Source: Streptosporangium brasiliense (GTDB lineage Bacteria; Actinomycetota; Actinomycetes; Streptosporangiales; Streptosporangiaceae). Taken from it: DNA of 64,000 nt. Location: the NCBI RefSeq assembly GCF_030811595.1, contig NZ_JAUSRB010000002.1, positions 5,952,001 through 6,016,000 of the forward strand, read 5' to 3'. The notes below the pieces were generated by a model. It had not been told where the DNA came from, made no database searches, and saw nothing but the letters and a program-made list of their open reading frames with translations. Of this stretch, positions 38,345 through 61,764 are shown piece after piece. The number at the start of each line of letters is the position of its first letter. Positions within the stretch are counted from its first letter, which is position 1. The translations under genes were made by a program, and so were the position numbers.

Positions 38345-38371
38345 TTACTGAGTTCGTGGGCGTGATGTCGT
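38344..38371. repeat. IS630 terminal inverted repeat, left
   Basis: Begins GTTACTGAGTTCGTGGGC and is an exact inverted match, over 28 bases, to 39472-39499. Confidence 0.9.
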
Positions 38372-39499: not shown

Positions 39500-39615
39500 A
39501 GCCGCCGCCGTCAACTGCTACAAATAGAACATTGAGGATGGGAGGGGTCCGGCTGACCGTATTCCGGACGGCCGGTGATCTTCGGAGCGGGCTGTCGGGA
39601 TCGTAGGTGGTAGGG

Positions 39616-42600
39616 GTGGAATTCCGGATTCTCGGCCCGCTGGAGGCCTACGACGACGAAGGAGTCCAGCTCGACCTCGGCGGCCCCCGCCCCCGCACCG
39701 TCCTGGCCAGGCTGCTCCTCGCCGGCGGGGCGCTCGTGTCCGCCGACACGCTGATCGACGACCTGTACGCCGGATCGCCCCCGGCCAGCGCCCTGGCCAG
39801 CCTGCAGTCGTACATGTCGAACCTGCGCCGGGTCATCGAGCCGGGCCGCGACCCCCGCACCCCTCCCCGGCTGCTCGTCGGGCGCCCGCCCGGCTACCTG
39901 CTCGCCACCAGGAACGTGGACGCGATCAGGTTCACCGAGCTCATCGCCGGCGCCGAGTCCGCCCCGCCGGGCAAGGCGCTCGCCTCCGTCAACGAGGCGC
40001 TGCGGCTCTGGCGCGGCGAGCCGTACGGCGCCTCGTCCGACGCGCCGTGGGCCGTCGCCGACGCCAACCGCCTACGGGAGTTACGCCTGGTCGCGATCGA
40101 ACGCCGCGCGCAGGCCCTGCTGGATCTCGACCGCCCGCAGGCGGTCATCCTCGACCTGGAGGTCGAGTCGGCCGCCAACCCCCTGCGCGAACGGTTGTGG
40201 AGCCTGCTGGCCCTGGCCCTGTACCGCACCGGGCGGCAGGGCGACGCGCTCGCCGCGCTCCGCCGCGCCAGGGATCTGCTCGCCGACCAGCTCGGCCTCG
40301 ACCCGGGCCCCGAGCTGCGGGCGCTGGAGCACGACATCCTCCGGCACGCGGAGTCGCTGACCGTCCCGCCCTCGCCCGCCGCCGCGGCGCGGGCGCCCGC
40401 GCCGCGGCGGCTCCTGGTCGGCAGGGAGCGGCAGCTCGCGGAGCTGAAGACGCTCCCCGTGCGCGCGGGCCGGGAGGGCGTGACGCTCGCGGCGGTGACC
40501 GGCGAGCCGGGCATCGGCAAGACCTGCCTGCTGGAGGCGTTCCGTGACCACTGCGCCAACCTCGGCTACGTGGTGTTGTGGGGGAGCTGCCACCACGGGG
40601 AGGGCGCGCCGGCGCTGATGCCGTGGTTGCAGATCCTCCGGGCGCTGGAGGAGGTCTCCGCGCCGCCGGACCGCCGGGCGCTGGCCGGTCTCCTCGACGA
40701 CGACAAGCCCGAAGACGTCACCGCGGCGGCGTTGCTCGACCGCAATCACGCCATCGCCCGCTGGCTCGCCGCGACCGCGCGGACCCAGCCGCTGGCGATC
40801 GTCCTCGACGACCTGCACGCGGCCGACCCCGCGTCGCTCGAACTGCTCAGGGACGTCGCCGTGCCGGCGGCGGGCGAGACGGCGAACGTCCCGCTGACGA
40901 TCGTCATGGCGTTCAGGGAGACGGCGTTCCCCGAGGCGGCGGGGCACCACCTGTCGTTGAACGACGTGCTGGGGCAGCTCGCCCGCCACGACGTGCTGCG
41001 CATCCGGCTGACCGGCCTGGGGGCGGACGACGTACGCGCGATCGCCGCCGCCATGGGCGCCAAGGTGGACGAGCCCGCCGCCGCGCGCCTGTGTGAGCGG
41101 ACCGGCGGCAACCCCTTCTTCGTGCGGGAGAGCGCGCGGCTGCTGGCCCAGGGGCGCGAGATGGAGGCTGTTCCACAGGCGGTGACCGTCCTGATCCGCT
41201 GGTGGCTGGGCAGGCTCGGCGCGCGGGTCAGCGAGGTCCTGGGCGTCGCCGCGCTGCTCGGCAGGCACTTCGACCCCGGCGTCGTCGCCGAGGTGTGCCA
41301 GGCGTCCGAGCCGGGCCCGGCCGAGGTGTACGACGCGCTGGACCGGGCCGCGCAGGCCGGGCTGGTCGTCTCCGGCGGGGCCACCATGGCCTTCGCTCAC
41401 GACCTGGTCAGGGAGACCATCGTCCAGGGCATCCCGCCGCTGCGCAGGGTGACGATCCACCAGGCGGTGATGACCTCCCTGTCCCGCAGGCCGGGCGTGG
41501 ACGTCTCCGTCATCGCGCATCACGCCGTCGAGGCGGGCCCCGCCGCGTACGCCGAGGCCGCGCGCTGGGCGCGCGCCGCCGCCGAGCAGGCGGGCCTGCT
41601 CATGGCCTACGAGGACGCCGCCGCCTGGTGGGGCCGCGCGGTGGCCGCGCACGGCGCCTGCGCGGGTGATCCCGCCGAGTACGTGGAGCTGCTCCTGCGG
41701 CAGGTCTCCGCGCTGCTGGAGGCCGGCGACCCGATCGGCGCGCGCGAGGCCCGCGCCAGGGCGGTGCGTGCCGCCGAGCGCACCGGCGCGAGCCCCGAGC
41801 TGACCGCCCACGCGCTCACCGCGCTGGACGCCCCGGCGATCTGGACGCCACGCGACCCCTACGGCACGGTGGAGCTGCGGCTGGTCGACAGGTTCGAGGC
41901 AGCGCTGCGGGCGCTGCCCGAAGGTGACCGGTCGGAGCGCGCCCTGCTCCTGGGCGCGATGGCGCACGAGCTGCCCGCTGACGACCCGCGCGGCGGCGCC
42001 CTGTCCGCCGAGGCCGTCGCGATGGCGCGCCGGCTGGACGACCCGCACCTGCTGATGCGCGTGCTCAACGCCAGGCACCTGGCGTTGCCGCAACCGCTGC
42101 ACATCCCCGAGCTGCTCGAACTCGCCGAGGAGATGCACGAGCTGGCCCTGCGCACCCGCACGCCGGGCTTCGAGCTGCTCGCTCAGATGATGTCCGCGCA
42201 CCACCGGCTGGAGCTGTCCGACCTGCCCGGCGCGGACGCGGCCGCCGCCCGGTGCGACGCCATGCTCGAACGGTTGTCCCTGCCCTGGCCGCGCTTCCAG
42301 CACACGCTGTGGCGGATCAACCGGCTCACCCTGGCCGGCCGGTTCGGCGCCGCCGAGGCGTTGTACGACGACGTCGAACGCCAGGCGGCCCGCATCGGGG
42401 TGTGGCACGCGGACCGGGCGGTCACCTTCGGTCGCCTGCTGGCGCACTACCACCGGGGCACCCTGGCGGAGGCGGAGCTCCCGGCCGACCTGGCGGACAG
42501 CCCGCATCCGAGCGCCGGCCACGACCTCAGGGTGCTGCACCTGTGCGCACTGGACCGGCGGGAGGAGGCCCGCGCGCTGGCCGCAGACGGCCGGCCGGCG

Positions 42601-46861: not shown

Positions 46862-49800
46862 TCAGCCGCTGACGCGGATGGTGCCGCTCACCTGCGCCGG
46901 TTCTACGCCGGTGTCGTAGACGAGCTCTCCGTTCTTCTTCCAGACCTTGACCGTCAGCTTGTCGTGCGTGCCCGAGTCGACCGTGGTGATCTCGAAGACG
47001 ACGTCGACGGTCTTGTTGACCTTTCCTGCGCCGCGCAGGATCGCGGTGTCCCCGTTGACGGCCAGCACCGCGGCGGAGGCGGCGCGGAGGTCGAACCCGG
47101 GGGCGGTGTAACGCAGCCCGCCGGTGGGCGTGGCCGCCTTGCCGCGGTAGCGGGCGGTCACGTCCAGGGTCGCCTCGCCCTTCTGCCCGGCGCACCCGGC
47201 GTCCAGCTTGCACGCCCCGGCGGGGGCGACGGCCTGACCGGCGCCGACCAGCGCCGAGTCCGGGTCGTAGACCAGCACGTACGCCTGCTCGCCCGCCACC
47301 GTGGAGGCCGTGGCCGCGACGCCGCGGTCGCCGGTCACGGTCACCGAGATCGGGTACCGCCCCGCCTTGGTGAACACGTGCGACCCGGTGACGGTGCCCT
47401 TGCCCCGATGTCCGGACACCGCCCCGGCGACCGGCCGGCCGCCGATCGTCCAGACCGCGGTGCGGATGTCGCCCGCGCCGCTGAACGACGCGCCGAACGG
47501 CACCGCCTCGCCCACCCGCACGACCTTCGCCACCGCCGGCGCCTTCAGCGTCACCTGGGGGGCGGCGTCGGTGACGTGGACGGTGAAGCGGGCGCTGCCC
47601 GACGCCCCGCCCTCGTCGGTGACCGTGAGCACGACCGTGTGATCGCCCGCCGCGCCGAACGTGTGCTGGAGCTTCAACTGGCCGGCGGTCAGGGCCAGCG
47701 GCTGCGGCCCCGCCCCGTCGCCGTAGTCGGCCGTGTAGGTCCAGGAGGTGGAGCCGGGATCGCTGAAGGAACCCATCCCGACCCATTCGGCCCCGGCCTC
47801 GACCACGTTGGCAGGCGAGCGCAGCGTCACCGTCGGCGCCGCGTGGTCCGCGGGCACCACGGTGACCTGGAAGGCGGCCGTGGCCGCCAGACCGCCGTCG
47901 TCGGTCACCTTCACGGTGACGGGGTAGGCGCCGGGGGCGGCCCACCCCGGCTGGTCCAGCCAGATCCGCAGGTCCGCGTCGGGGGTCACCGGCCGCGGCC
48001 CCGCCCCGTCGCCGTAGTCGACGGTGGCCGTCCATGAGGTGGAGTCCGGGTCGGTGAAGAAGACGTGCCGCTGCAGCTTCTGGCCGACCCGCACCTGGGC
48101 GTCGTGCCCGGCGTCCAGCACCGGCGCGGTGTTCTGCGCCGCCTCGCCGATCACGTACGGCACCCCGGCCGATCCGGTGTTGCCCGCGCCGTCGGTGACG
48201 ATCACCAGGGCGGTGCCGGTGCGCGGGGCCGTGAACGTCCGCGTCGCCTTCACGGTGCCGCCACCCGGCCCCGCGATCACCTGGGCGTCCACCGGCGGTC
48301 CGTCTCCCCACGCGACCCGGGCGGTGTGGCTGTCGGCCGCGTCGGCGTCGGTGAAGGCCACCTCCAGGGTGAACGGCTTGCCCACCTCGCCCCGCACGGG
48401 CGCGGCCGGCGCCTGGACCATCGGGGAGCTGCTGGGTTTGGCGCCCTGGCCGGTCAGCGGCACCGTGTAGGCCGGCTGCCCGCCGTCGGCGGTGGTGAAC
48501 GTCAGCGCCCCGGTCGCCGGGCCCTCCTGCGTGGGGGCGAACCGCACCTCCACCGTGCAGACCGCGCCGACCGCCAGCTCCACCGGGCAGGCGTTGGCCT
48601 GGGTGAACGGACCGGTGACCGCGATCACCTTCAGCGGGATCGGCTCGTTGAGCCGGTTGGTGAGCTTCACCGCGTACGGCGGGCTGACCTCGCCGACCTT
48701 CACCGGATCCGGCCAGTTGAGCGCGGGACGATCGAGCAGCGGGCGCACCGTCGCGGTCACCTCCGCCGCGTTGTCGCCGGTCTTCGGGTCGGCCACCTCC
48801 GTGCTGTAGCCATGGACGCCGGCCTTCAGCCCGGTCCCGTCCGGGGTGCCCGCCGGGACGGCGGCGGTCACCTCGACCGTGGCCGACCAGCCGGGCTCCA
48901 GCACCTTGACCGTGTTGCGGAACCCATCCTTGATCGGCGCGCAGACGCCCCGCCAGGTGTCACAGGCCGCGCCGGTCACCGTCCGGGGGATCAGCACGTC
49001 CAGCCGGACGTCGGTGGCCGGGTCGTCGCCCTTGTTGGTCACCGTGGCCGTCCAGGTCACCTTCGAGCCCGGCCCGGGCTCGGCGGCCGAGACCTCCGCG
49101 GTGACCTGCAGATCCGCCAGCGCCTCGGCCGGGGTCAGCAGGTACGAGCGGTCCCGCTGGACGAAGCCGTCGCCGTCGGCCGCGCGGTCGCGCACGTAAC
49201 CCCACACCAGGATCTGGCCCGAGGAGTTGACGTCCTGCACCTTCCAAGCGCCGACGCACGGCTGGGTCGTCTTCGCGGCGTCCTCCGGGCACCACGGCCG
49301 CGACAACACACCCGTCAGCGGGTACTTCGTGCCGTCCACCCACATCACAGGACGCTTGTGCCGGCTGAGGTTCGGCCCCTGCTCGAAACCGACGATCAGG
49401 CCGTCGTCGTTGACCGCGGTCGCGTCGCCCTCGCCCAGATCGGCCGGCTCGCCGCCCTGCCACGCATAGGCGCGTTTCGGCGTCTGCTGCTCGTAGCGGC
49501 CGCACCGCAGCGTGCCGACCACGAGGCCGTGCGCGTTGACGTCGGAGGCCCGGCCGGCCGTCTGCGCGCACCCGGCGACCGGTCCGCCTGGCAGCTTGGT
49601 GAGCATGCCGTTGGCGTAGATCGCCGGGCCCGTGTCCGTGGGCAGGCCGTTGGCGTCCTTACCGAGCGCGTGGCCGCCCGCGATCGCGCCGCTGTCGTTG
49701 ATCCGCAGGGGCTGGTTCTGGTGCCAGTCATTGTCATAGCTGACGCCCGGGACGAACTCGGCGGGCAACGCGTCGGCGGCGCCCCGATCCCAGATCGTGT

Positions 49801-52800
49801 ACTCGAGCCTGCCCGCGTCGCCGACCACCTGGCCGTTGTCGTTCAGCCCGGTGGCGGCGGGCCACTTCGTGCCGTCGCCCCGCCGCAAGTCGGTGACGGA
49901 GCCGTCGGCGCGCCAGACGACCGCGTGCTGGGCGTTGGAGCCGTTCGCCGACCCCACGGACCAGCCGGACACCTCGCCGGCCCGGTTGATGTCGAAGGCG
50001 CCCGTCTCGCATTTCACCGCGCCGTCGGCGCAGGTCAGGCCGGTCAGCTCGGTGAGCGCGCCGTCCTGCCAGCGCACCGCGTGCCGCTTGCCGTCCTTGC
50101 CCATGGCCGTGGCCGCGACCTGGCCGCGGTCGTTCAGCCGCTCCGCGTAGGTCTTCGACACGTCGCCGCCCGGCAGCGTGCCGAGCTCGGTCACCTTGAA
50201 GGTACCGAACAGCGCCTTCACCGTGTGCGGGCCGTCCATGGTCACCGTCAGCGGGCCGGGGCCCCGCTTCTGACCGTCGACCACCCACCCGATCGGTACG
50301 CGTCCCGCGTCCGGGGTGGCGGTCACCTTCACCGTCGTCCCCGCCCGGTACGCCTCCCGCGCCGGCGCCGCCGCGACGGAACCGCCCGGCCCCGCCGACA
50401 ACGTCAGCGCGAACTCCCGCAGGTCCGGCTTGGCCACCTCCACGACGTCGCGGTCGGTGCGCACGCCCTTGGCGGTCTCCGCCTTGGCCACGACGTAGTA
50501 CTGGTCGTCGGCGAGGACGTCGGTGCGCGCGCCGTAGACGCCGTCGCCGGCGGCGCCGTCATCGCTGGCGCCGTCGTCCTTCAGCGTCACGGCCAGGAGC
50601 GTCTGACGGTGCTCGACCCCGGCCAGCCACGCCCGCACCGGCGCCCCGGTGACCGGCTGCCCGTCGTCGGTGACCTTGGCCGTCACCATGACCCTGCCGT
50701 CCTCGGCCGCCGCGGCCTTGGCCACCACCTGCACCGGGTTGCCGGTGACCCACGCGGTCAGGTCGGCCCGCACCGCCTGCGCGGCCGTGCTGGTCACCTC
50801 CAGCGTCCACGCGCCCTCCTGCGGATCGGCGACGCTCAGCCCCTGGTACTGCTGCTTGGCCGCGTCACTGCCCGCCGCGTACGAGGCCGCGACCTTCCCC
50901 GACGGATCCCGCAGCGACAACCCCACCGTCTCGGGGAGCACTCCGGTGACGCCGAACGCCGATCCCCGCGGCACCTGCAACGGCACGCTCGCGGTCTTCC
51001 CCGGCTCCACGGACACCGTCGGCGCGCCGAACATCGACAACGAGCCGCCGGTGACGGCCGCCGTCTTCTCGTCCTGCACTGCCTGCTTGTCCGTCAGGCC
51101 CGTGACGGGCGGGGCGCCGACCACCAGCGACACCAGCCGCGGCCTGACGTAACGCACGAAGTCGTCGTCGGAGAACGTCATGTACGAGTGCAGCGTGGAG
51201 GTGATGGGGTGATCGCCCCACCCGGGAAGCAGGTGCAACGCGCTCCACCACGGGACGACGCCGTCGCCCATGAACGGCAGCGGGTAGTTCGCCGTGGTGC
51301 ACGGCACCAGCCACGAGTCGCCGACGAGGTTGGAGGCCCGCACGCCCTTCAGGTTCGTGATCCGGCCGTTGAACCCCTTGTGCTCCCCGTCGCCGTTCAC
51401 CCACTCCGTAGTGTTCTCGATCACGGCGGGGAACCAGGGGGACAGCTCCTCCGTGATCGACCGCTCCACCACCATGTCCGCGCACGGGCTGCCCGCGTTC
51501 GGCGCGCCCATGGCGATCAGACGGGTCACCGCCGGCTTGTTGTCCGGCGTGCTCGGCATCCGCTCCTGGATGTACTGCCGCGAGATCAGCGTGCCCATCG
51601 AATGGGCCACCAGGTTGATGTGGAACGCGCCCGTCTTCTTGCGCACGTCCTCGATGTATGTCGCCAGTTCGTCGACGTTCTGCGCCATGGTGTAGCTCTC
51701 GTGGAGCGGGTTCCACTTCTCGCCGGTGTCCATCCGGCCCTCCGCCTGGCCGTCGCCGACGGCGAACACGTTGCCGTCCGGGTGGCCCAGCTCCTTCATG
51801 ATCTCGTCGAACTCGCCCCAGGTGTCCTGCGCGTCGCTGCGGAAGCCGTGCACCGCCACCACGGGCTTGGGCACGATGGAGATGCGGTTCGCGAGGCCGT
51901 CCACCGGGTTGCCCGCGACGTAGAGGATCGCGCCAGGGCCACGGTCCGACAGCGGGTCCGATTTGTTGTCCCAGGCCCAGCCGGTGGTGTCCCAGATCTC
52001 GCGGATCGTCTTGGTCTGTCCTGGGGCGAGGTCCACCTGGATCTCACCGGTGACGATGGGCTTCTTGGACTTGTTGTCGGCCAGCCGGATGTAGCCGCGC
52101 ACCGGATGGGTGGTGCTGTGGTTCCTCACCGTCATGGATATGCGGACCTTGTTGCCCTCGACCGTGCTGCCCCCGATGTCCGGTACCGGGCGCCAGTCCG
52201 TGGACGGGTACCGCTGCGTCTCGAGCGTGAACGACTCCAGGCGGGGCGCGTCGACGCCCAGGTCGAGCAGGAAGACATGGTCGGCGACCGAGGTGCCGTA
52301 CCGGCCGACGACGGCGATCTGGCCGAGGTCGTTGATGCCTGAGGCGTATTTGAGGTAGACGTCCTTGCCGGCCGCGCGCACCAGGTTGGTCAGGTCGGTG
52401 GCGACGCCGTTCACGTACATGGCGGCCCGGGGCGCGGCGTGGGCGTCGAACATCACTCCCACGCCGACGCCGTCGTTGTTGATCGCGTACACCCGGCCGC
52501 CGTGCGGCACGTCCTGTTCCTGGGCTTCGCCTTCTTCATCCCAGATGACGGGGATGTCTTCGATGTCCGGGCCCGCCCTGTCCACGTAGCCGGCGACCTC
52601 GTCATGGTCGTTGACGTCCATGGCCCGGGTCTCGGCGTTGCCGAAGATCAGCAGGTCCCGGCTCAGGTTGAGCGGTTCGCCCGGCCTGGTGCGGAAGGCG
52701 CGCCAGTCGATGAGGGGGCCGGAGTCGATGTCGGCGAAACCGACGACCGTCCCGCCATTGGTCATCGCGCTGGGCTCCATGTACTGGTGCTTGAACGCCT

Positions 52801-53341
52801 GGAGCTTCAGAATGGAGCCGTCGGGGCTCCACACTCCCATCGAGCCCGCGATCTGCCCGCGGTCGTTGATGGCCGTCCCCGCAGGATCCCAGGGCAGGCG
52901 GGTGGCCGTGCCGTTCTTGACGAGGAAGCTGGCACTCGTATCGCTGGTTCCGACGATCACCGCGCCTTCGTTGTTGATGTCGCGGGGGGAGCTTACGAGG
53001 TAGTCACCGCCGATGATCGCGTGAAGATCCGTGAACGGGTCGGCTTCACGAGAGAACAGGACGGTTTTGGGGTACCTGCCGAGGGGGGAATCGGGGTTCG
53101 GGACCTGCCCGACGATCTGTCCCTTGTTGTTGATCTTGCCGAGCTTGCCGTCGGAAGTGTTCATGTCGGCCAGGTGCATGAGCTCGATCGGGCGCGCCGT
53201 ACTCGCCGTGGTCGCGTCCTGAGACGCGGCCAGCACGGGTAAGGGCGTCGCGAGCGAGCCCAGCACCACGGCGATCAGGGGGTGCGCGATCCGCCGGGCG
53301 GAGGCACGATTGAATAATCGGTGCAAAGGGGGTGACTCCAT
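46862..53341 (-). CDS. Giant secreted lipase-like protein with HAF, DUF11, ASH and PKD domains
   Basis: 2159 residues from ATG 53341. A signal peptide (RRIAHPLIAVVLGSLATPLP, then VLAAS) leads into HAF-type repeats (INNKGQIVGQ, INDRGQIAGS). An alpha/beta hydrolase follows: VAVHGFRSDAQDTW near 497 and the nucleophile Ser581 in VAHSMGTLISRQY, as in lipases and PGAP1-like enzymes. A second HAF block starts near 1047 (LGTLPGGDVSKTYAERLNDR). Then come a DUF11 repeat (about 1410), an ASH-like domain (about 1550), about four PKD domains (1640-2020) and a C-terminal beta domain. No sortase motif was seen, so it is probably released. It may hydrolyse lipids or esters in the surroundings; the substrate is unknown. 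A terminator-like hairpin lies directly before the start codon. Confidence 0.9.
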   Translation of the reverse strand: MESPPLHRLFNRASARRIAHPLIAVVLGSLATPLPVLAASQDATTASTARPIELMHLADMNTSDGKLGKINNKGQIVGQVPNPDSPLGRYPKTVLFSREADPFTDLHAIIGGDYLVSSPRDINNEGAVIVGTSDTSASFLVKNGTATRLPWDPAGTAINDRGQIAGSMGVWSPDGSILKLQAFKHQYMEPSAMTNGGTVVGFADIDSGPLIDWRAFRTRPGEPLNLSRDLLIFGNAETRAMDVNDHDEVAGYVDRAGPDIEDIPVIWDEEGEAQEQDVPHGGRVYAINNDGVGVGVMFDAHAAPRAAMYVNGVATDLTNLVRAAGKDVYLKYASGINDLGQIAVVGRYGTSVADHVFLLDLGVDAPRLESFTLETQRYPSTDWRPVPDIGGSTVEGNKVRISMTVRNHSTTHPVRGYIRLADNKSKKPIVTGEIQVDLAPGQTKTIREIWDTTGWAWDNKSDPLSDRGPGAILYVAGNPVDGLANRISIVPKPVVAVHGFRSDAQDTWGEFDEIMKELGHPDGNVFAVGDGQAEGRMDTGEKWNPLHESYTMAQNVDELATYIEDVRKKTGAFHINLVAHSMGTLISRQYIQERMPSTPDNKPAVTRLIAMGAPNAGSPCADMVVERSITEELSPWFPAVIENTTEWVNGDGEHKGFNGRITNLKGVRASNLVGDSWLVPCTTANYPLPFMGDGVVPWWSALHLLPGWGDHPITSTLHSYMTFSDDDFVRYVRPRLVSLVVGAPPVTGLTDKQAVQDEKTAAVTGGSLSMFGAPTVSVEPGKTASVPLQVPRGSAFGVTGVLPETVGLSLRDPSGKVAASYAAGSDAAKQQYQGLSVADPQEGAWTLEVTSTAAQAVRADLTAWVTGNPVQVVAKAAAAEDGRVMVTAKVTDDGQPVTGAPVRAWLAGVEHRQTLLAVTLKDDGASDDGAAGDGVYGARTDVLADDQYYVVAKAETAKGVRTDRDVVEVAKPDLREFALTLSAGPGGSVAAAPAREAYRAGTTVKVTATPDAGRVPIGWVVDGQKRGPGPLTVTMDGPHTVKALFGTFKVTELGTLPGGDVSKTYAERLNDRGQVAATAMGKDGKRHAVRWQDGALTELTGLTCADGAVKCETGAFDINRAGEVSGWSVGSANGSNAQHAVVWRADGSVTDLRRGDGTKWPAATGLNDNGQVVGDAGRLEYTIWDRGAADALPAEFVPGVSYDNDWHQNQPLRINDSGAIAGGHALGKDANGLPTDTGPAIYANGMLTKLPGGPVAGCAQTAGRASDVNAHGLVVGTLRCGRYEQQTPKRAYAWQGGEPADLGEGDATAVNDDGLIVGFEQGPNLSRHKRPVMWVDGTKYPLTGVLSRPWCPEDAAKTTQPCVGAWKVQDVNSSGQILVWGYVRDRAADGDGFVQRDRSYLLTPAEALADLQVTAEVSAAEPGPGSKVTWTATVTNKGDDPATDVRLDVLIPRTVTGAACDTWRGVCAPIKDGFRNTVKVLEPGWSATVEVTAAVPAGTPDGTGLKAGVHGYSTEVADPKTGDNAAEVTATVRPLLDRPALNWPDPVKVGEVSPPYAVKLTNRLNEPIPLKVIAVTGPFTQANACPVELAVGAVCTVEVRFAPTQEGPATGALTFTTADGGQPAYTVPLTGQGAKPSSSPMVQAPAAPVRGEVGKPFTLEVAFTDADAADSHTARVAWGDGPPVDAQVIAGPGGGTVKATRTFTAPRTGTALVIVTDGAGNTGSAGVPYVIGEAAQNTAPVLDAGHDAQVRVGQKLQRHVFFTDPDSTSWTATVDYGDGAGPRPVTPDADLRIWLDQPGWAAPGAYPVTVKVTDDGGLAATAAFQVTVVPADHAAPTVTLRSPANVVEAGAEWVGMGSFSDPGSTSWTYTADYGDGAGPQPLALTAGQLKLQHTFGAAGDHTVVLTVTDEGGASGSARFTVHVTDAAPQVTLKAPAVAKVVRVGEAVPFGASFSGAGDIRTAVWTIGGRPVAGAVSGHRGKGTVTGSHVFTKAGRYPISVTVTGDRGVAATASTVAGEQAYVLVYDPDSALVGAGQAVAPAGACKLDAGCAGQKGEATLDVTARYRGKAATPTGGLRYTAPGFDLRAASAAVLAVNGDTAILRGAGKVNKTVDVVFEITTVDSGTHDKLTVKVWKKNGELVYDTGVEPAQVSGTIRVSG

Positions 53342-53349
53342 CGCTAAAA

Positions 53350-53372
53350 GCCGTGCCCTCCCCAGGCACGGC
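53350..53372 (-). promoter_or_regulatory. Terminator-like hairpin just upstream of the giant gene
   Basis: GCCGTGCC and GGCACGGC pair around a 7-nt loop. On the minus strand the stem is followed by TTTTAGCG and then the ATG. The only purine-rich Shine-Dalgarno candidate (GGGGAGGG) lies in the loop and 3' arm, so the structure could attenuate transcription or hide the ribosome site. Confidence 0.5.
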
Positions 53373-53524
53373 CGGGGAATGTCCGTCACGGATGGTGCCA
53401 GCCGCGCTTGCAGGTCACCTGGCCCCGCTTGTTCCGCGCATGTGACGTCTCGCGTGCGGCCGCGGCCCTCCCATCGGCCAGGTCCTGGGCCGCAAGCGGT
53501 CCACCGGGCACGACAAGGCTCCTG

Positions 53525-53550
53525 CAAGGACGATCGGTCACCTTGCCGGG
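53525..53550 (+). promoter_or_regulatory. Shared terpenoid-cluster box, copy A
   Basis: CAAGGACGAT, then CGGTCACC, then TTGCCGGG. One of four related boxes; it is 60 bp before the first paralogous P450. A second partial CGACAAGG lies just upstream. Confidence 0.6.
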
Positions 53551-53610: not shown

Positions 53611-54957
53611 ATGGCCACCATCGTTCCACTCCATCGTTTGCTGCCGATGTTCGCGCGGGGGTTCGTGGACGCGTTCGCGGACGTCGGCAGGCGCTCGCGC
53701 GGGGAGGTCGTACGGCTCGGCCTGGGGCCGTGGCGGCCCTACCTGATCACCCATCCCGACCACGTCCAGCACGTGATGCGGGACCACTGGACGAACTACC
53801 TGCGGGTGGGCCAGGTCTACGAGCCGGTGCAGCGGCTCATCGGCACCACCCTCGCGGGGGAGGGCCCGGACTGGGAGGCCGGTAGGACGGCGCACCAGCC
53901 CATGTTCACGGCGCGGAACGTCACGTCGCTCGCCGGGGAGCTGGCGGAGGTGATCGCCGAACGCGTCGGCCTGCTGGACGAGCCGGCCCGGGCGGGCCGG
54001 CCGATCGAGGCCACCCGGACGATGGCCGGCCTCGTGGTCGCGGCGAACATCAGGGTGTTCTTCGGAAAGAAGAGCACCTTCGCGGACGGAGAGCGGATGG
54101 TCCGGGCGTTCGGCACGGCCATCAAGCTGTCCGGCATCCGCACCATCCTGCCGTTCGTGCCCGACGGCGTCCCGCTGCCCGGCGACCGCGCCATGGCCGG
54201 CGCCGTCAGGACGGTCGACGCGCTGGTGTACCCGCTGATCCGCGAGGCGCGGGCGGGCGACGGCCACGACGTGCTGTCCGCCCTGTGCCGGGCGCGCGGC
54301 ACCGGCCAGGACGCCGACCGGCTGGTCCGCGACGACCTCGTCGCCGCGCTGGTCGCCGCGGACGACACGACGACGCACGCCCTGGCCTGGGTGTGGCCGC
54401 TGCTCCACGCGCATCCCGGGGTGGCCGCCCGGCTCCATGCCGAGGTGGACCGGGTCGTCGGCGCCGGACCGGTCGAGCCGTCACACCTGCCGGAGCTGCG
54501 GTACACGAAGATGGTCATGCAGGAGGTCCTGCGCCTGTACCCGTCGGGCTGGATCCTGCCGAGGGTCGCCGTCGAGCCCGGAGAGGTGGGCGGAGTCCGC
54601 GTCGCGGCCGGCTCGACGGTGCTGGTCTGCCCGTACGCCACGCACCGGCTGGACGCGTTCTGGGACCGCCCGCTCGCCTTCGACCCGGAACGTTTCCTCG
54701 ACCAGCGCAGGCACCGCTACTCCTACTTCCCCTTCGGCGGCGGCCCCCACCAGTGCCTCGGCCGGCACCTGTTCTTCGTCATCGCGTTGCTCACCGTCGC
54801 CACCATCGTGAGCCGCTACCGGCCGCAGGTGGCCAACCCGGGGCGGTTCACCCCTTTTCCCGGCGTGGCGTTGCGCCCCAAGCAGGAGATCAGGCTGCGC
54901 CTCATACCCCCGGAGGGCCGAAGTAAGGCAGGAGACCGGTCTGGTCGTGGCAGTTGA
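53611..54957 (+). CDS. Cytochrome P450, terpenoid-cluster paralogue 1
   Basis: 448 residues of the eukaryote-like class also found as pentalenene-type oxygenases. PDHVQHVMRDHWTNYLR near the start, helix I LVAADDTTTHALAWVW (the usual A-G-T-D-T-T has become A-A-D-D-T-T), EVLRLYP (ExxR), PERF and the haem ligand Cys382 in FPFGGGPHQCLGRHLF. ATG 53611 follows AGGAG by ten bases. A stronger site (AAGGAG) precedes ATG 53564 in another frame, and the close paralogue at 56582-57967 has about 13 more N-terminal residues, so an N-terminal frameshift is possible. It probably oxidises the cluster's terpene. Its 3' end overlaps the aldoxime dehydratase gene by 56 bp. Confidence 0.92.
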   Translation: MATIVPLHRLLPMFARGFVDAFADVGRRSRGEVVRLGLGPWRPYLITHPDHVQHVMRDHWTNYLRVGQVYEPVQRLIGTTLAGEGPDWEAGRTAHQPMFTARNVTSLAGELAEVIAERVGLLDEPARAGRPIEATRTMAGLVVAANIRVFFGKKSTFADGERMVRAFGTAIKLSGIRTILPFVPDGVPLPGDRAMAGAVRTVDALVYPLIREARAGDGHDVLSALCRARGTGQDADRLVRDDLVAALVAADDTTTHALAWVWPLLHAHPGVAARLHAEVDRVVGAGPVEPSHLPELRYTKMVMQEVLRLYPSGWILPRVAVEPGEVGGVRVAAGSTVLVCPYATHRLDAFWDRPLAFDPERFLDQRRHRYSYFPFGGGPHQCLGRHLFFVIALLTVATIVSRYRPQVANPGRFTPFPGVALRPKQEIRLRLIPPEGRSKAGDRSGRGS

Positions 54958-55909
54958 GATACTCCATGAGCCCGCCCTCCGGCGGCACGTAGACCTCATG
55001 GCCGAGCGTCACGTTTATTTCGGGGGCGAACCTGGCGATGAGTTCGCCCGCGCTCTTGTAGATCGCGAGATGGGTGGGGTGGCTGTGCGCCCACTGTTCG
55101 AGATGGGACAGGCTCAGGAACCACGCCAGCGTGGTGGTCTGCACCCGTTCGTCGTTCGACACGGGCAGCTCGGCGAGGCAGGCGGACAGGCAACCGGTCT
55201 CATCGGGATGCTCGGTGAGATATCCGACGCCCTCCCGGTAGACGGGCAGCACGCGCTCCTCGAACCAGGCGCGCTCGTCGTCCGGGCAGTGCCTCCAGCC
55301 CTGGGGGCTGCGGATGAAACAGAGGTTGCGCGGGGTGGCCACGACCAGGTGACGACCGGCCGAGTCCACCGGCCCTGCCTGCACCGACGCGACCTCGCCG
55401 GCGAGCCCGCCGTCCTCGGCGGCGGCGATCCGGTCGCGCATCGACCCCGGGTAGGAATGGCAGACGTTCAGCGCCGCGGGGAACTGCGAGGCCAGGCCCC
55501 ACGACGGGGAATCGTAGGAGTACGACGTCTCGAAGTGGTCAGGCGGCGCCCACAGGACCTCCGTCCACAGGCCGATCGGCCCGCCCGCCGCCGTCAGGCC
55601 TGGGTCGGCCCACGATCCGAGCGGATGCGCGGCCGACCACGCCTTCTCTGCCCCGGCGTCCAGCCAGTAGGCGAGCAGGACGTCGTTGGTGTAGCCACGG
55701 CGGTCGACGTGGGTGGCGTGCTCGTACGTCACCGGGGCGTGCGCGCCGCCGAAGCCGTCGAGCATGCGCGCCAGCACCCGCCGGGCCTCCGCGGACCCCC
55801 GGTGCTGCACGGCCAGCTGCCGCAACGTGACGCCCGCCGCCTGCTCGGGCAGGCGCAGACTGTAGGCCGGGTACGGGTTCTCGAAACCCGCCGGTCGGAT
55901 TTTCGCCAT
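54902..55909 (-). CDS. Haem-dependent aldoxime dehydratase
   Basis: 335 residues of the phenylacetaldoxime dehydratase family (OxdA/OxdRE). The enzyme removes water from an aldoxime to give a nitrile, with the substrate N bound to ferrous haem. By comparison with OxdA from memory, all key residues are kept: Arg158 in GSMRDR, Ser201 in CFIRSPQGW, the proximal haem ligand His277 in SHPTHLAIY and the catalytic His304 in LGHEVYV. The C-terminal EYLNCHDQTGLLPYFG also fits. ATG 55909 has AAAGGG six bases upstream. It follows a gutted P450 by 71 bp in the same direction and has no nitrilase or nitrile hydratase beside it, so the nitrile may be the product rather than an intermediate. Confidence 0.93.
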   Translation of the reverse strand: MAKIRPAGFENPYPAYSLRLPEQAAGVTLRQLAVQHRGSAEARRVLARMLDGFGGAHAPVTYEHATHVDRRGYTNDVLLAYWLDAGAEKAWSAAHPLGSWADPGLTAAGGPIGLWTEVLWAPPDHFETSYSYDSPSWGLASQFPAALNVCHSYPGSMRDRIAAAEDGGLAGEVASVQAGPVDSAGRHLVVATPRNLCFIRSPQGWRHCPDDERAWFEERVLPVYREGVGYLTEHPDETGCLSACLAELPVSNDERVQTTTLAWFLSLSHLEQWAHSHPTHLAIYKSAGELIARFAPEINVTLGHEVYVPPEGGLMEYLNCHDQTGLLPYFGPPGV

Positions 55910-55980
55910 GACAGGCCCTTTCAAGCAATTTCGGGGGAAGAGGAAGTCCCCGGGGGACAGGGCTCACCCGGGCGGTCCGG

Positions 55981-56595
55981 CTACGGCAGGCGCGGCCGCA
56001 CGTGCACCCACACGCCGTCCTTGACGCGGAGATGGCTGGCCACCCGGACCCGGGTCTCGCGTCCGGGAACGGGCGTCAGGACGCGGCGCTGACCCGCTCC
56101 GGCTCGCCCGGCCGCATCTCGGTGCCGGACAGGGCGCGCACCATCACCTGCATGCTCAGCCGGTCGCAGGCCGCCGCGATGTCGAAGGGCTCGCCGGCGC
56201 GCGTCCGCGCGGTCCAGTCGTGGAAGGCCTCGTCGATGACGTCCACCATGGTGTCCGCGAGGCCCGTCAGCCGCCGCCGGTGGAAGGCGGGCTGAATGAG
56301 CCGGCGCTGCCGCTTCCACACCTCGCCCTCGACGAAGGGCAGCGCGTCGCCCATGAGCGTCCGGATGCCGTCCCAGACGGGGCCGCTCTTGACGTAGTTG
56401 CGCGCGTTGTCCACCAGGAGGTGTTGTGCATGCCGGGGGGTGGCACACCACGGTGAGCTTCGTGAAAGCGAGGTCCGGATCGAAGATGTCGCCGTAGGCC
56501 GCCCGGGTTTCCCGGATGAAGGCGAGCCCCTTTCGCAGGAGGGCCAGCGGGTAGCCGGGCACCTTCGGCGGCGTCCGCCTGTCAACCGGTCGCAC
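55981..56595 (-). pseudogene. Cytochrome P450 remnant: N-terminal part joined to C-terminal end
   Basis: From GTG 56595 (VPGYPLALLRKGLAFIRETR, IFDPDLAFTKLTVVCHPP) the match shifts frame near 56430 to HAQHLLVDNARNYVKSGPVW, EGEVWKRQRRLIQPAFHRRR (helix C) and MVRALSGTEMRPGEPE. It then stops in that frame. A last piece, GRETRVRVASHLRVKDGVWV then HVRPRLP, matches the usual P450 C-terminus in the first frame. Helix I, ExxR and the haem Cys region are deleted. Its start overlaps the stop of the intact P450 upstream, so it was once the second gene of that operon. Confidence 0.8.
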
Positions 56596-57967
56596 GGGCG
56601 GACCTCGCTCTGCGGCGCTCCACGGGCACGAGGTGCAGCTCTATCGGCTGCTTGGGGCGCAACGCCGCCGGGAGGGGGCTGATCGGGCCCGGGGTGCGCA
56701 CCTGCGGGTGGTGGCGGCTCACGATGGTGGCGAGGGTGAGCAGCGCGACGACGGAGAACAGGTGCCGGCCGATGCACTGGTGGGGGCCGCCGCCGAAGGG
56801 GAAGTAGGAGTACCGGTGGCGGCGGTGCTCGTGGCCGGGGGAGAACCGTTCCGGGTCGAACTCCAGCGGGCGGTCCCAGAACTCGTCCAGCCGGTGCGTG
56901 GCGTAAGGGGAGATGAACACCGGGGAGCCGGCGTCGATGGGCACACCGCCGATGTCGCCGGGCGCGACGGGGAAACGTTGCATGATCCAGCCCGACGGGT
57001 ACAGGCGCAGGACCTCCTGGACGACCATCTTGGTGTAGCGCAGCTCAGGGAGGTGTTCCTGGCGGACCGGCCCCGTGCCGACGACGTGGTCGATCTCCTC
57101 GTAGAGCCGGGCGGCCACCCGCGGGTGGGCTTGGAGCAGCGGCCAGACCCAGGCCAGGGCGTGGGTCGTCGTGTCGGTGCCGGCGACGAGGGCGGCGACG
57201 AGGTCGTCGCGGACCAGCCGGTCGGCGTCCTGGCCGGTGCCGCGCGCCCGGCACAGGGCGGACAGCACGTCGTGGCCGTCGTCCTGCCGCGCCTTGCGGA
57301 TCAGCGGGTACACCAGCGCGTCGATGGCCTCGACCGCGCCGGCGAAGGCGCGGTCGCCGGGCAGCGGGACGGAGTCGGGCACGAACGGCATGATCTGGCG
57401 GACGTTCATCCACTTGACGGCCGTGCCGAACTCCCGGGCCAGCCGCCTTCCTTCGGCGAAGGAGCTCTTCTCGCCGAAGAAGAACACGGTGTTCACGGCG
57501 ACCACGAGGTCGGCCATCGTCCGGGTGGCCTCGATCGGCCGGCCCGCCCGGGCCGGCTCGTCCAGCAGGCCGACGCGTTCGGCGATCACGTCCGCCAGTG
57601 TCGAGGTGAGCGACGTGACGTGCCGCGCCGTGAACATGGGCTGGTACGCCTTCCTACTGGCCTCCCAGTCCGGGCCCTCACCGGCGAAGGTGGTGCCGAG
57701 GAACCGTTCCACGGGGGCCCAGACCTTGCCCATCCGCAGGTAGTTCTGCCAATGGTCCCGCATGACGTGCCGGACGTGGTCGGGATGGGTGACCAGGTAG
57801 GGGCGCAACGGCCCGAGGTTGAGCCGGACGATTCCGCCGCGGGATCGCCTGGCGATGTCCGCGAACGCGTTCACCGGGCCGCGCGCGAGCAGCGGCAGCA
57901 TACGACGGAGGGGAATGACGGCGGCCTGTCGGCCCGGTTCAGCGGTGGTGCCGGTCGGGACGGACAT
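56582..57967 (-). CDS. Cytochrome P450, terpenoid-cluster paralogue 2
   Basis: 461 residues from ATG 57967 with GAGGAA upstream. It is a close paralogue of the P450 at 53611-54957: long shared stretches include GHDVLSALCRARGTGQDADR and VALVAGTDTTTHALAWVWPL. Helix I is the canonical A-G-T-D-T-T, EVLRLYP is ExxR, and the haem ligand is Cys398 in FPFGGGPHQCIGRHLF. It probably oxidises the same terpene or a later intermediate. It heads an operon with the gutted P450 and probably the aldoxime dehydratase, and carries box B ahead of its start. Confidence 0.94.
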   Translation of the reverse strand: MSVPTGTTAEPGRQAAVIPLRRMLPLLARGPVNAFADIARRSRGGIVRLNLGPLRPYLVTHPDHVRHVMRDHWQNYLRMGKVWAPVERFLGTTFAGEGPDWEASRKAYQPMFTARHVTSLTSTLADVIAERVGLLDEPARAGRPIEATRTMADLVVAVNTVFFFGEKSSFAEGRRLAREFGTAVKWMNVRQIMPFVPDSVPLPGDRAFAGAVEAIDALVYPLIRKARQDDGHDVLSALCRARGTGQDADRLVRDDLVAALVAGTDTTTHALAWVWPLLQAHPRVAARLYEEIDHVVGTGPVRQEHLPELRYTKMVVQEVLRLYPSGWIMQRFPVAPGDIGGVPIDAGSPVFISPYATHRLDEFWDRPLEFDPERFSPGHEHRRHRYSYFPFGGGPHQCIGRHLFSVVALLTLATIVSRHHPQVRTPGPISPLPAALRPKQPIELHLVPVERRRARSARATG

Positions 57968-58006
57968 GTGTGTTCCTCGACAGTTCGGGCTGCTGAAGGA
58001 TACGAG

Positions 58007-58033
58007 CCCGGTCACCGTGGCCAATCGTCCTTG
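58007..58033 (-). promoter_or_regulatory. Shared terpenoid-cluster box, copy B
   Basis: On the minus strand CAAGGACGATTGG, then CCACGGTGACCGGG, 40 bp before P450 paralogue 2. Together with copy A it differs at only a few bases and one single-base gap. Confidence 0.65.
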
Positions 58034-58088
58034 TCGGGCGCTTGTGGTGTCCCGGCGATTCCTTGCGGGCCGCTTGCCGGCGCGGGGC

Positions 58089-59138
58089 TCAGTGGTCGCG
58101 GCGCATCGCCCATCCGGCGATCCCGGCGAGCTCGTCGCGCCCCGCCTCGCGCGGTTCGGCGCGGTCCAGGCAGGCCAGCGCCAGGCCGATCTGGCGGCGG
58201 CCCTCCGCCTCCACCGCCGTCCGGCCGCCCGCCGCCTCGATGAGGTCAGCCATCAGCGCGCATTCCCGCCCGTCGGGCGGCGCCGCCCGGCGGTACAGCG
58301 CCGCCAGCCGGCGGCCCGCCTCGCCCGCGTCCGCCAAGGCGGTGATCACCGGCAGCGTCTTCTTGCGCGCGGCGAGATCTGCGCCGACCGGCTTGCCCGT
58401 GCGGTCCGGCCGGCCCCAGATGCCCAGGATGTCGTCGGCGCACTGGAAGGCCACCCCGAGATGCCGGCCGAAGCGGCCGAGCTCACGGGCCCGCTCCCCG
58501 GACGAGCCGCCCAGGAGCGCTCCGAGCGTGCACGCGCCGCCGAGCAACGCGCCGGTCTTGAGCTCGGCCATCGATCGGTACTCCGCCGCGCCGACGTCGT
58601 CGCGGGACTCGAAGGCCATGTCGTCGCTCTGCCCGCGCATGAGATCCGCCATGGTGCCGACCAGGACGCCGGTCACGTCCGGATGCCCCGTGCCGGCGAG
58701 CACCTGAAGCGCGAGGATCTGCAACGCGTCCCCGGCGAGCACGGCCGCCCCGACGCCGAAGCGCACCCACGCCGCGGGCCGATGCCGCCGCACGCGGTCC
58801 GCGTCCATCACGTCGTCGTGCAACAACGAGAAGTTGTGCACCAGCTCCACCGCCACCGCCCCGGGGATCGCGCGCCGGTCCTCCCTGCCCACCGCGCGCG
58901 CCGCGCCCAGCACCAGGGCCGGGCGCAGGGCCTTGCCCGTCCCCCCGTACGCCGCCCCGTCCGCCCAGCCGAAGTGGTACTCCGCCACGCGGCGCTCCGG
59001 ATCGGGCAGGGCGGCGACCGCCCGGCGCAGCGCCGGCCGCACCAGCGCCTCCGCCTCCGCGAACGCCCGCGGCGGCGGCTCGCCGGCGCGTCCGGCCGAT
59101 CGGTGGGACAACACTCCATCACTCAGCTCGCTCGACAT
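58089..59138 (-). CDS. Polyprenyl diphosphate synthase (GGPP/FPP synthase family)
   Basis: 349 residues from ATG 59138 with GAGGAG seven bases upstream. The first Asp-rich motif is intact (HDDVMD, Asp108-109-112), with the Lys-Arg region GKALRPALVLGAA before it. The second Asp motif reads CADDILGIWG (Asp235-236), lacking the third Asp, as is common in the actinobacterial branch with this wording. It condenses IPP units to a C15-C20 diphosphate. The divergent terpene synthase 230 bp away would use the product, most likely GGPP or FPP; the chain length cannot be set by eye. Confidence 0.94.
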   Translation of the reverse strand: MSSELSDGVLSHRSAGRAGEPPPRAFAEAEALVRPALRRAVAALPDPERRVAEYHFGWADGAAYGGTGKALRPALVLGAARAVGREDRRAIPGAVAVELVHNFSLLHDDVMDADRVRRHRPAAWVRFGVGAAVLAGDALQILALQVLAGTGHPDVTGVLVGTMADLMRGQSDDMAFESRDDVGAAEYRSMAELKTGALLGGACTLGALLGGSSGERARELGRFGRHLGVAFQCADDILGIWGRPDRTGKPVGADLAARKKTLPVITALADAGEAGRRLAALYRRAAPPDGRECALMADLIEAAGGRTAVEAEGRRQIGLALACLDRAEPREAGRDELAGIAGWAMRRDH

Positions 59139-59189
59139 CGGCGATCTCCTCAGGGAGTAGCCCGGGACATGTGAAGCAGGCGACTTGGG

Positions 59190-59216
59190 CCCGGCCAACG
59201 TGGCTTGTCATCCTTG
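59190..59216 (-). promoter_or_regulatory. Shared terpenoid-cluster box, copy D
   Basis: On the minus strand CAAGGATGACAAG, then CCACGTTGGCCGGG, 52 bp before the polyprenyl synthase start. Confidence 0.6.
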
Positions 59217-59319
59217 TGGGCCGCTCAAAAGCTCACATTCCGCCGCTCAGCCCCGTCGCGGCGCCCTTCCTGGCCGGATGCGCCCACAAGCCCGTCCGCG
59301 GCCGGCGACCAGCGAACGA

Positions 59320-59345
59320 CAAGGACGCCAAGCACGCTGGCTCCA
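59320..59345 (+). promoter_or_regulatory. Shared terpenoid-cluster box, copy C
   Basis: CAAGGACGCCAAG, then CACGCTGGCTCCA, 22 bp before the terpene synthase start. It is the weakest copy at its 3' end, but the CGACAAGGACG core is the same as in copy B. Confidence 0.5.
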
Positions 59346-59367
59346 GCAGAAGTCGCAAGGAGCTTCC

Positions 59368-60474
59368 ATGGACACACCGCCCCCCATGCGCATCGACCTC
59401 CCGCCCGCCTATTGCCCGATCCCCCCGGCCATCAATGACAACTTCGAAGAGTGCAGGCGCCGCGGCCTGGCCTGGATGAGCGAGCACGGATTCTGCGCCG
59501 ACGACGCGGCCAGGCTCCGGGTCGCCCAGACCGATTCCGCCGAATGGTGCGCCCAGGCCATGCCCCACGCCAGTCCTGAGCGCCTGCAGGTCGCCACGGA
59601 CTGGACCTACCTGATGTTCGTCTTCGACGACCTGTTCTGCGACACGGGCGAGAGCAGCACGAACACCGACGCCTTCGTCGAGGCCGCCGCCCGCATCATG
59701 CACCTGTTCGAAGCCCCCGACGGCGCGACCATGGACCCGGCCAACCCCTTCACCGCCCCCATCCGCGATCTCGCCCTGCGCGTCCGGCGCTGCGCGACCC
59801 CGGCCCAGGTCCGGCGCTGGATAGAGGCGCACCGCACATGGCTGCTCGGCGTGGCCTGGCAGATCGCCGCCCAGTCGTCCGGGACCCCACTGAGCCTCAA
59901 CGACTACACGGTCATGCGCCTGGGCACCTGCGCCGGCCTCCCCTGCGCCGCGATGGTCGAAGAGGACGAAGTGCCCGCGAACGAACTGAACAGCCCCAAG
60001 GTGCGCGCACTCACCGAGGCCGCCTGCCTCACCGCCGGCTGGGACAACGACCTGGCCTCCTACGGCAAAGAGCTCTGGCACAGACAACAGACCCCCGATG
60101 CCCGGCCGGGCATCGCCACCAACCTCGTCGACGTCCTCATAGATCTGTACGGCCACACCCGCGACCAGGCCCTGGAAGAAGCCACCCGGCTGCGCGACCA
60201 CACCACGCACCTGTTCATCCGGCTGCGCGAGCAGGCGCTGCCCACCGCCGGCGCCCCGCTGCACCACTACCTCAACGCCCTGAGCACCAGCATCCGCGCC
60301 ACCCTCGACATCGGGCTCACCACCGCGCGCTACACCAACCCCGACGGCGCCCACCCCGGCGCGATCCACATCACCTCAAGCCTGACCGACACACCACCGA
60401 TCGCGGCGGCGAACCCCCTCCCCATCCCGGCCATCGCCTGGTGGTGGGACCTGCTCGACCGCCGCGCCGGCTGA
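59368..60474 (+). CDS. Class I terpene synthase (terpene cyclase)
   Basis: 368 residues from ATG 59368 with AAGGAG five bases upstream. The Asp-rich metal motif is FDDLFCDTGE (Asp87, Asp88, Asp92) and the NSE motif is complete: Asn227, Ser231 and Glu235 in WDNDLASYGKE. MRLGTCAG holds a candidate pyrophosphate-sensor Arg, and a C-terminal ARYT gives the RY pair. It ionises a prenyl diphosphate and cyclises it to a hydrocarbon or alcohol. The divergent polyprenyl synthase supplies the substrate, and the clustered P450s would oxidise the product. A diterpene or sesquiterpene is likely; the skeleton cannot be predicted. Confidence 0.95.
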   Translation: MDTPPPMRIDLPPAYCPIPPAINDNFEECRRRGLAWMSEHGFCADDAARLRVAQTDSAEWCAQAMPHASPERLQVATDWTYLMFVFDDLFCDTGESSTNTDAFVEAAARIMHLFEAPDGATMDPANPFTAPIRDLALRVRRCATPAQVRRWIEAHRTWLLGVAWQIAAQSSGTPLSLNDYTVMRLGTCAGLPCAAMVEEDEVPANELNSPKVRALTEAACLTAGWDNDLASYGKELWHRQQTPDARPGIATNLVDVLIDLYGHTRDQALEEATRLRDHTTHLFIRLREQALPTAGAPLHHYLNALSTSIRATLDIGLTTARYTNPDGAHPGAIHITSSLTDTPPIAAANPLPIPAIAWWWDLLDRRAG

Positions 60475-61165
60475 GCCGTAGGGGAGCGGGAAGGCGCGGC
60501 ACAACTCCCGCACCGAGGCGGCCACCCGCCCGCGCACCCCGGCCGCGCCGCCGGGGAGCGCGTGCACGGCGTGGTGGAGTGCGCGGCGTCGATCGGGGTC
60601 GGGTGCAACCCCGCGGCCACCAGCCCGGCGATGTGCGTGATGTCGGCCAGCACGTACGCCCCCACCTCGTCGGCGACGGCCCTGATGCGGCCGAAGTCGA
60701 TCGACCGGGTATAGGACGTGGTGCCGCACACGATCAGCCGCGGCCGGTGGGCGTGGGCGGCCTTCGCGAGCTGCCCGTGGTCGATCAGGCCCCGGTCGTC
60801 GAGCCCGTAGTGTGCACCGTGTACAGCCGGCCGCTCAGGTTGACCGGCGCCCCATGGGTCAGATGGCCACCCTGGTCCAGCGCCATCCCGAGAACGGTCG
60901 CGCCCGGCCGCAGCAGCGACTGCATCACGCTGTGGTTGGCGAAGCTCGCGCAGTGGGGCTGCACGTTGACGTAGCGGGCGCCGAACGCCTCCTTGGCCCG
61001 CTCGATCGCCAGCTCCTCGACCTGGTCGACGTACTCGCAGCCGGCGCGGTAGCGCCCCCCGGGTAGCCCTCGGCGGTGACGTTGACGATGGTCGCGGCCG
61101 AGGCGGCCGGCACCGACGCGTCGGTGCCGCCGTTGGAGGCCACGAGCGACAACGACTCCGACTGG
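60475..61165 (-). pseudogene. Serine hydroxymethyltransferase-like gene, truncated and frameshifted
   Basis: Joined across at least three frames, the minus strand gives [89 protein letters not shown] and DEVGAYVLADITHIAGLVAA, the middle of a SHMT. The first 50 or so residues and everything after the PLP-lysine region are missing; that region itself is altered (HAVHALPGGAAG in place of a T-H-K-x-L-x-G-P-R-G text). It cannot make a working enzyme. It is squeezed between the terpene synthase and the TetR gene. Confidence 0.7.
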
Positions 61166-61170
61166 CGGCC

Positions 61171-61764
61171 TCACAGCGTGGCCGGTCCACCTGGTGTGCC
61201 GGCGATCTGGGTGACGAGGAAGTCGAGTCGCTCCGTTTGGCCGTTCGGGGGGATGCGGCCGCTTTCCGACAGGGCGGCTATGCCGTGCAACGCGCTCCAG
61301 GTGACTTCGGCGAACAGTTCGCGTCGCAGGTCGTCCGGGCGGAAGCAGCTCACGAACTCGTCGAAGGCGGCGCGCAGTGGGGGCGGCGTCTCGGCGTGCG
61401 CGAACTTCACATCGGTCGGCAGGACGAACATGGCCTGGTAGAGGGCGGGCTGTTCGGTCGCGAACTCCAGGTAGGCGCGGCAGACGGCGTGCAGTGCCTG
61501 AGGCGGCTCGGGGGTGGCCAGCCGGGCACGGCGCAGGCGGGCCGCGAGTTCATCGAAGCCTTCGATGGCAACGGCGCGCAGGATGGCCTCCTTCCCGTTG
61601 AAGTGGCTGTAGAGCACGGGCTGGCTGTATTCGACGCGCTCAGCCAGCCTTCGCGTTGTCACCGCCTCCCACCCTTCGGCCTCGGCCAGTTCGCGGGCGG
61701 CCGTGATGATCAGCTGATGGCGTTGGGCGCGTTCACGTTCGCGGCGTTTGGTGATGGCGGACAT
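61171..61764 (-). CDS. TetR/AcrR-family transcriptional regulator
   Basis: 197 residues. The N-terminal helix-turn-helix is typical ([40 protein letters not shown]). The C-terminal ligand-binding half has the TetR_C-like [19 protein letters not shown]. Two short palindromes lie 20-50 bp upstream of its start, which suggests autoregulation. It is downstream of the DHA2 exporter gene on the same strand and probably represses it. Confidence 0.93.

Follow-up and report, generated by a model that had tools for sequence, protein, structure and literature searches.

We propose that the far end (positions 53611-60474) of a 64 kb stretch of the Streptosporangium brasiliense genome (G000; the whole stretch is called the window here) is a composite locus, in which the gene for an aldoxime dehydratase (Oxd) joined a rearranged diterpene cluster and acts on a non-diterpene substrate, an explanation that we favour with some reserve. 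What is known of bacterial aldoxime dehydratases comes mainly from nitrile breakdown, and a preliminary description of the window had read this neighbourhood as a pathway to a nitrile-containing terpenoid. Family matches bore out its inventory, namely a class I terpene synthase (TPS), a polyprenyl synthase, two paralogous cytochromes P450 (P450s) and Oxd within about 7 kb. The gene order at the window end is P450A (+), Oxd (-), a broken third P450 (P450C, -), P450B (-), an enzyme of the geranylgeranyl diphosphate (GGPP) synthase type (GGPPS, -) and the TPS (+). The pairing of Oxd with terpene genes probably reflects a local rearrangement, not a nitrile-terpenoid pathway, because two sister clusters lack Oxd and most relatives of Oxd lie elsewhere.

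The first sister cluster is a paralogue in the same genome (G000:C2, ~5852-5874 kb), about 150 kb from the window cluster and without Oxd, which was matched only once in G000. Its proteins are 76% (AfsR-type regulator), 91% (TPS), 73% and 60% (P450s) and 52% (PKD protein) identical to those of the window, and P450B is 82% identical in DNA to the paralogous locus. Between the P450s of this paralogue lies an open gene for a squalene-hopene-cyclase-like protein with DADS where DxDD is expected, and neither its TPS nor its GGPPS gene can be read in a single frame (L037:8864-18954, L038:66-10205). Open TPS and GGPPS genes in the window, set beside frameshifted ones and an open class-II-like cyclase in the paralogue, would suit a single pathway shared by the two loci, with Oxd perhaps acting on the joint product; we consider this very improbable, and the frameshifts on which it builds may be real or may be assembly errors. 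The second sister cluster is orthologous and belongs to another genome of the genus (G015), where TPS and GGPPS are 88% and 76% identical, P450B is 77% identical in amino acids and no Oxd lies inside the cluster; the Oxd of that genome (72% identical) is 53 kb from its TPS. In the G015 cluster the third P450 is intact and shares 75% identity with the P450C fragment of the window; the cluster also contains DXS and IspH genes (L105:16223-19271), for which we found no match in the window, in the paralogous locus or in the 14 kb after the window. Across the three homologous clusters Oxd is present in the window only, and none of 14 TPS loci further removed within the family (30-40% identical where aligned) gave an Oxd match. 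When positions 52.0-58.1 kb of the window were compared with the Oxd loci of G015 and Microbispora, the DNA similarity consisted of the Oxd gene and pieces of 21-52 bp.

The relatives of Oxd point in the same direction. Oxd is rare among the genomes sampled: it exceeded the cut-off in 4 of 341 family genomes, in 5 of 394 genomes of a class sample, and in 7 of 394 and 8 of 392 genomes of the G057 family and genus samples, where the samples overlap and one match in each of the last three counts is marginal. Its closest relative (80% identical), the one relative that a scan of genome contigs gave, is found in Microbispora triticiradicis (L014:9457-17259, contig QFZU02000072.1), behind genes for a P450, a GNAT protein and a Haem_oxygenas_2-like protein, and beside a SARP/AfsR regulator that is 57% identical to that of the window. 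No TPS match was found within ~66 kb of the Microbispora gene; our searches for TPS, nitrilase, nitrile hydratase and amidase genes were built on proteins found in this analysis, as a profile or as queries, so other kinds of these enzymes could be missed. Six further Oxd loci in G057, G1139 and G1280, which belong to another family of the same class, encode proteins 42-56% identical where aligned, and the TPS profile gave no match within ~10 kb of any of them (at L096, within the contig, 10.3 kb) or within 49-60 kb of the two G057 loci, the wider searches at these two and at Microbispora spanning ~49-69 kb. A GAF-LuxR gene adjoins Oxd at L016, and AfsR-like matches occur at L016, L095 and L097. 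Both arrangements that the preliminary description had named as signs of an accidental neighbourhood, terpene genes without Oxd and Oxd apart from terpene genes, therefore occur, the former in the own-genome paralogue and G015, the latter in Microbispora, at these six loci and, at 53 kb, in G015.

In trees of 13 and 19 sequences, from which the broken Oxd of L097 was excluded, the Oxds of the window, Microbispora, G015, G057, G1139 and G1280 form one clade (support 1.0 and 100), within which the window Oxd pairs with the Microbispora copy, not with that of G015 (0.92 in FastTree; 94 ultrafast bootstrap). The clade comprises nine loci from six genomes (the window, L013-L016 and L094-L097), and ten other Oxd loci served for comparison (L012, L078-L084, L098, which has two Oxd copies, and L099). 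The comparison of neighbourhoods did not include Oxd matches that fell below the Pfam cut-off or barely exceeded it (G017, G028, G182, G355, G367, G389, G402, G420, G445, G456, G540, G606, G670, G850, G874, G893, G919, G954, G989, G1015 and G1067, the marginal ones being G389 and G874). A TPS lies within ~10 kb of Oxd at one of the nine clade loci, that of the window, and at one of the ten others, in G332, where a 28% identical TPS is 8.8 kb from a nitrilase-flanked Oxd. In the second of the tandem Oxd copies in G1153 (L098:7867-12131), Arg occupies both aligned His positions, and a frameshift may be the cause. Two other ideas were considered and set aside. The SARP/AfsR regulator does not tie Oxd to the cluster, as its relatives also occur next to the paralogous terpene cluster and, in G015, next to a diiron-oxygenase-like gene that lies at a distance from Oxd; the other idea was plasmid carriage, and the 34 plasmid records that match Oxd all do so at <60% identity.

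The window Oxd (54902..55924, -) is a member of its family by its match to PF13816 (201.1 bits against a cut-off of 25, E 3.7e-59, residues 40-331), and with a score of 164.6 bits against the OxdA equivalog NF050090 (cut-off 600) it is not classed as OxdA proper. Comparison with orthologues places its likely start at ATG 55909 (MAKIRPAGF...), with GAAAGG just before. The protein aligns with the solved structures 7f2y, 3a15 and 3w08, and Arg158, Ser201 and His304 (numbered from MAK) align with Arg178, Ser219 and His320 of OxdRE, in agreement with the catalytic residues first named for it. The haem ligand had been given as His277, the first His of the HPTH motif; the alignment points instead to the second, His280, which aligns with the haem-binding His299. 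For OxdA, catalytic roles of the aligned Arg, Ser and His are described in an excerpt of PMC5391958. Members of the clade have Pro after the catalytic Ser, where the other Oxds compared have Gly or Ala, and are 26-34% identical to eight Oxds linked to a nitrilase or nitrile hydratase. Aldoxime dehydration by Oxd, like the other enzyme activities discussed here, is predicted from family membership; a hypothetical Oxd of Streptomyces griseoruber was inactive on expression, according to a passage of PMC11568032.

The TPS gene (59368..60474, +; PF19086) lies in an open reading frame that opens at 59185, with a likely start at ATG 59368 (MDTPPP...), and its DNA similarity to the sister copies begins at 59351. 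Its best PDB matches are 7y87 and 7y50 (E ~1e-83), which part of PMC9543850 describes as cattleyene synthase, a diterpene synthase using GGPP, and it retains the motifs DDLFCD and NDLASYGKE. Because it is cattleyene-synthase-like, it is probably a diterpene synthase. The polyprenyl synthase (GGPPS type, 58089..59198, -; PF00348; motifs DDVMD and DDILG) scored 382.4 bits against a family-2 encapsulin cargo model and 291.7 bits against IdsB, both under the cut-off. The locus combines a class I TPS with its metal-binding motifs, a prenyl synthase and P450s, and its product would be a diterpene. P450A (53611..54957, +; 448 amino acids; PF00067), which shares 56 bp with the 3' end of Oxd, and its paralogue P450B (56582..58024, -; PF00067; likely start near 57967, read from the translation) form an inverted repeat with 84% identity over 1.1 kb and differ by a nonsynonymous divergence (dN) of 0.17 and a synonymous divergence (dS) of 0.23. 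Both keep the haem motif FGGGPHQC, and their top NCBIfam scores, far under the cut-offs, are to terpene oxygenases (albaflavenone monooxygenase and pentalenene oxygenase).

Between P450B and Oxd lies the P450C pseudogene (~56004..56571, -), which had been overlooked earlier and is read in two frames. Compared with the intact P450 of G015, it keeps a 5' part (79% over 506 bp) and a 3' end (78% over 101 bp), carries a frameshift and has lost a middle part of ~0.7 kb. We ruled out that Oxd inserted into P450C and truncated it: both ends of P450C survive upstream of Oxd, and therefore the loss is an internal deletion. A rearranged composite is also suggested by the debris at the cluster edges. On one side, adjoining the AfsR-type regulator, is a transposase remnant in two frames (38371..39458, -; HTH and DDE_3 in the domain scan), which we presume to be IS630-like; on the other, downstream of the TPS, is a broken serine hydroxymethyltransferase in two frames (60330..61190, -; PF00464).

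In the composite locus as we picture it, the GGPP synthase would make GGPP, the cattleyene-synthase-like class I enzyme would cyclise it, and P450A and P450B would oxidise the cyclised diterpene. The Oxd gene would have come to lie, in this lineage, at the end of the GGPPS-P450B-P450C run, beside the decayed P450C. The haem of Oxd, with Ser201, His304 and Arg158, most likely would still convert a small aldoxime into a nitrile by dehydration, and this substrate would be made elsewhere and would not be the diterpene, so that two pathways would stand side by side.

Several observations weigh against this separation of Oxd from the terpene genes. GGPPS, P450B, the P450C pseudogene and Oxd follow one another on the same strand at short intervals, ~94 bp before Oxd, and because of this layout Oxd may be co-transcribed with them; terminator-like patterns at 55946-55962 are weak, and the stretch folds no better than shuffled sequences. 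A scan for promoter patterns found none. Within the genus, TPS (E 1e-40 or better) and Oxd are confined to the same 2 of 16 genomes, G000 and G015, a co-occurrence expected by chance in 1 case in 120, or 1 in 15 given G000 (calculated by hand), and these two genomes are not sisters on a tree of one housekeeping gene, which was found in 13 of the 16 and whose support is weak in places. In G015, TPS and Oxd are separated by 53 kb, and a second TPS-P450 pair lies 11.6 kb from Oxd. Oxd also looks constrained from its sequence (dN 0.13 and dS 0.58 against the Microbispora copy; window branch alone ~0.44, by hand), and the close sister clusters available for comparison number only two.

Some of these observations would suit a version of the pathway of the preliminary description, in which a P450-oxidised diterpene aldehyde or amine would become an aldoxime that Oxd turns into a nitrile-bearing diterpenoid. 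The co-directional gene run, the shared presence of TPS and Oxd in the genus (within 60 kb of each other in G015) and the lack of a nitrile-hydrolysing gene found near Oxd all speak for it. Such chemistry is possible for a terpenoid aldoxime because citronellal oxime, whose skeleton is that of an acyclic monoterpenoid, is an aldoxime that Oxds accept, according to part of PMC11568032, and nitrile groups are known in terpenes, as stated in an excerpt of PMC13060819. We nevertheless regard this pathway as unlikely. Two of the three homologous clusters have no Oxd, none of the 8 other clade loci has a TPS within ~10 kb, and the third P450 is broken. An oxidised diterpene would moreover need nitrogen, and the scan, which covered a part of the window genes, revealed no nitrogen-inserting, amine-forming or oxime-forming enzyme, although a P450 could serve. 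TPS and Oxd do not seem to share one history, as the window Oxd is nearer to that of Microbispora than to that of G015, and in G129, taken to be that Microbispora genome, nothing matched the window TPS at E 1e-40. G000 has seven TPS matches, of which the six listed lie at at least four places in 10.5 Mb, and the chance of Oxd falling within 7 kb of a TPS is ~0.5-1% by a hand estimate; the pairing itself was found by scanning.

The clade to which the window Oxd belongs differs from other Oxds in its neighbourhoods. As the preliminary description had noted, no nitrilase or nitrile hydratase lies near Oxd: neither of these, nor an amidase, was matched anywhere in the 64 kb of the window or in the 14 kb that follow it, which does not look like a catabolic operon. 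The same holds for the clade loci, with a match to a nitrilase, nitrile hydratase or amidase at 0 of 9 loci in the stretches examined, against a nitrilase or nitrile hydratase at 10 of 10 other Oxd loci examined (a Fisher value of 1.1e-5 for this split takes related loci as independent and is descriptive only). Of the earlier nitrile-terpenoid proposal, the missing nitrile-hydrolysing neighbour thus stands and extends to the clade, while the terpenoid link is weakened by the sister clusters and by Oxd relatives elsewhere. Oxd might alternatively serve ordinary detoxification or utilisation, degrading aldoximes from outside with the nitrile hydrolysed by an enzyme encoded elsewhere. This is a known role of Oxds in operons with nitrilase or nitrile hydratase, according to part of PMC8955678, which also states that oxd genes frequently accompany genes of this kind, and the ten other Oxd loci fit it. 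Against it, none of the nine clade loci shows such a gene in the stretch examined, and we think this role quite improbable here.

Nitrile formation, not nitrile degradation, may be the role of this clade. The P450, GNAT, diiron-like and Oxd genes of Microbispora are a possible operon for aldoxime-to-nitrile biosynthesis. The match of the diiron-like protein to Haem_oxygenas_2 is weak (27.8 bits, cut-off 28.9), as is its likeness to iron-containing redox enzymes. A homologue of this protein is found in G015 (52% identical), and none was found in G000. The G015 homologue (L109:9783-15015) adjoins an AfsR regulator that is 60% identical and lies ~1 Mb from the G015 Oxd. A stronger version, in which the clade left nitrile catabolism for biosynthesis, with a diiron oxygenase and a P450 in Microbispora and with a diterpene operon leading to a nitrile-bearing diterpenoid here, strikes us as rather doubtful. 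The lack of nearby nitrile hydrolysis across the clade is a more general lead than the terpenoid neighbourhood. A clade that keeps its catalytic residues, yet has no nitrilase or nitrile hydratase found at nine loci, would be a place to seek bacterial nitrile natural products and new Oxd substrates. The window, for its part, shows that a pathway suggested by the neighbourhood in a single genome may find no backing in sister clusters.

Further genes lie upstream of the cluster. A SARP/AfsR-type regulator of 1985 amino acids (39607..45564, +), whose BTAD and AAA_16 domains are taken from the scan of its 76% identical paralogue, is followed by a further P450 (45568..46791, -; PF00067, 62 bits), which stands between the regulator and the gene for a very large protein in which Pfam matches show lipase-like and PKD domains (46862..53527, -). 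A homologue of this large protein lies beside the paralogous cluster (L038:3675-10205), so that such a protein accompanies both.

Searches of an open-access library turned up no paper that places an Oxd in a terpenoid cluster; to our knowledge the neighbourhood is new as a fact about a single genome, and as a pathway it is not established. Compared with known systems, the window Oxd resembles OxdB (7f2y), OxdRE (3a15) and OxdA (3w08) in its homology over nearly the full length and in the conserved Arg, Ser, His and His, and differs from them in belonging to a separate clade and in having no nitrilase or nitrile hydratase neighbour found. Similarly, the window TPS resembles the cattleyene synthase CyS of Streptomyces cattleya (7Y50/7Y87/7Y88), its best PDB match, and the Asp-rich and NSE motifs of the two have the same pattern; unlike CyS, it has a product predicted by sequence and sits with two P450 paralogues and Oxd. 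The weak Haem_oxygenas_2 protein at the Microbispora Oxd can be likened to the haem-oxygenase-like diiron enzymes AetD, SznF and BelK/HrmI, treated in an excerpt of PMC10654658. Whereas AetD makes a nitrile alone, as described in part of PMC11611611, the diiron-like protein of Microbispora instead accompanies an Oxd.

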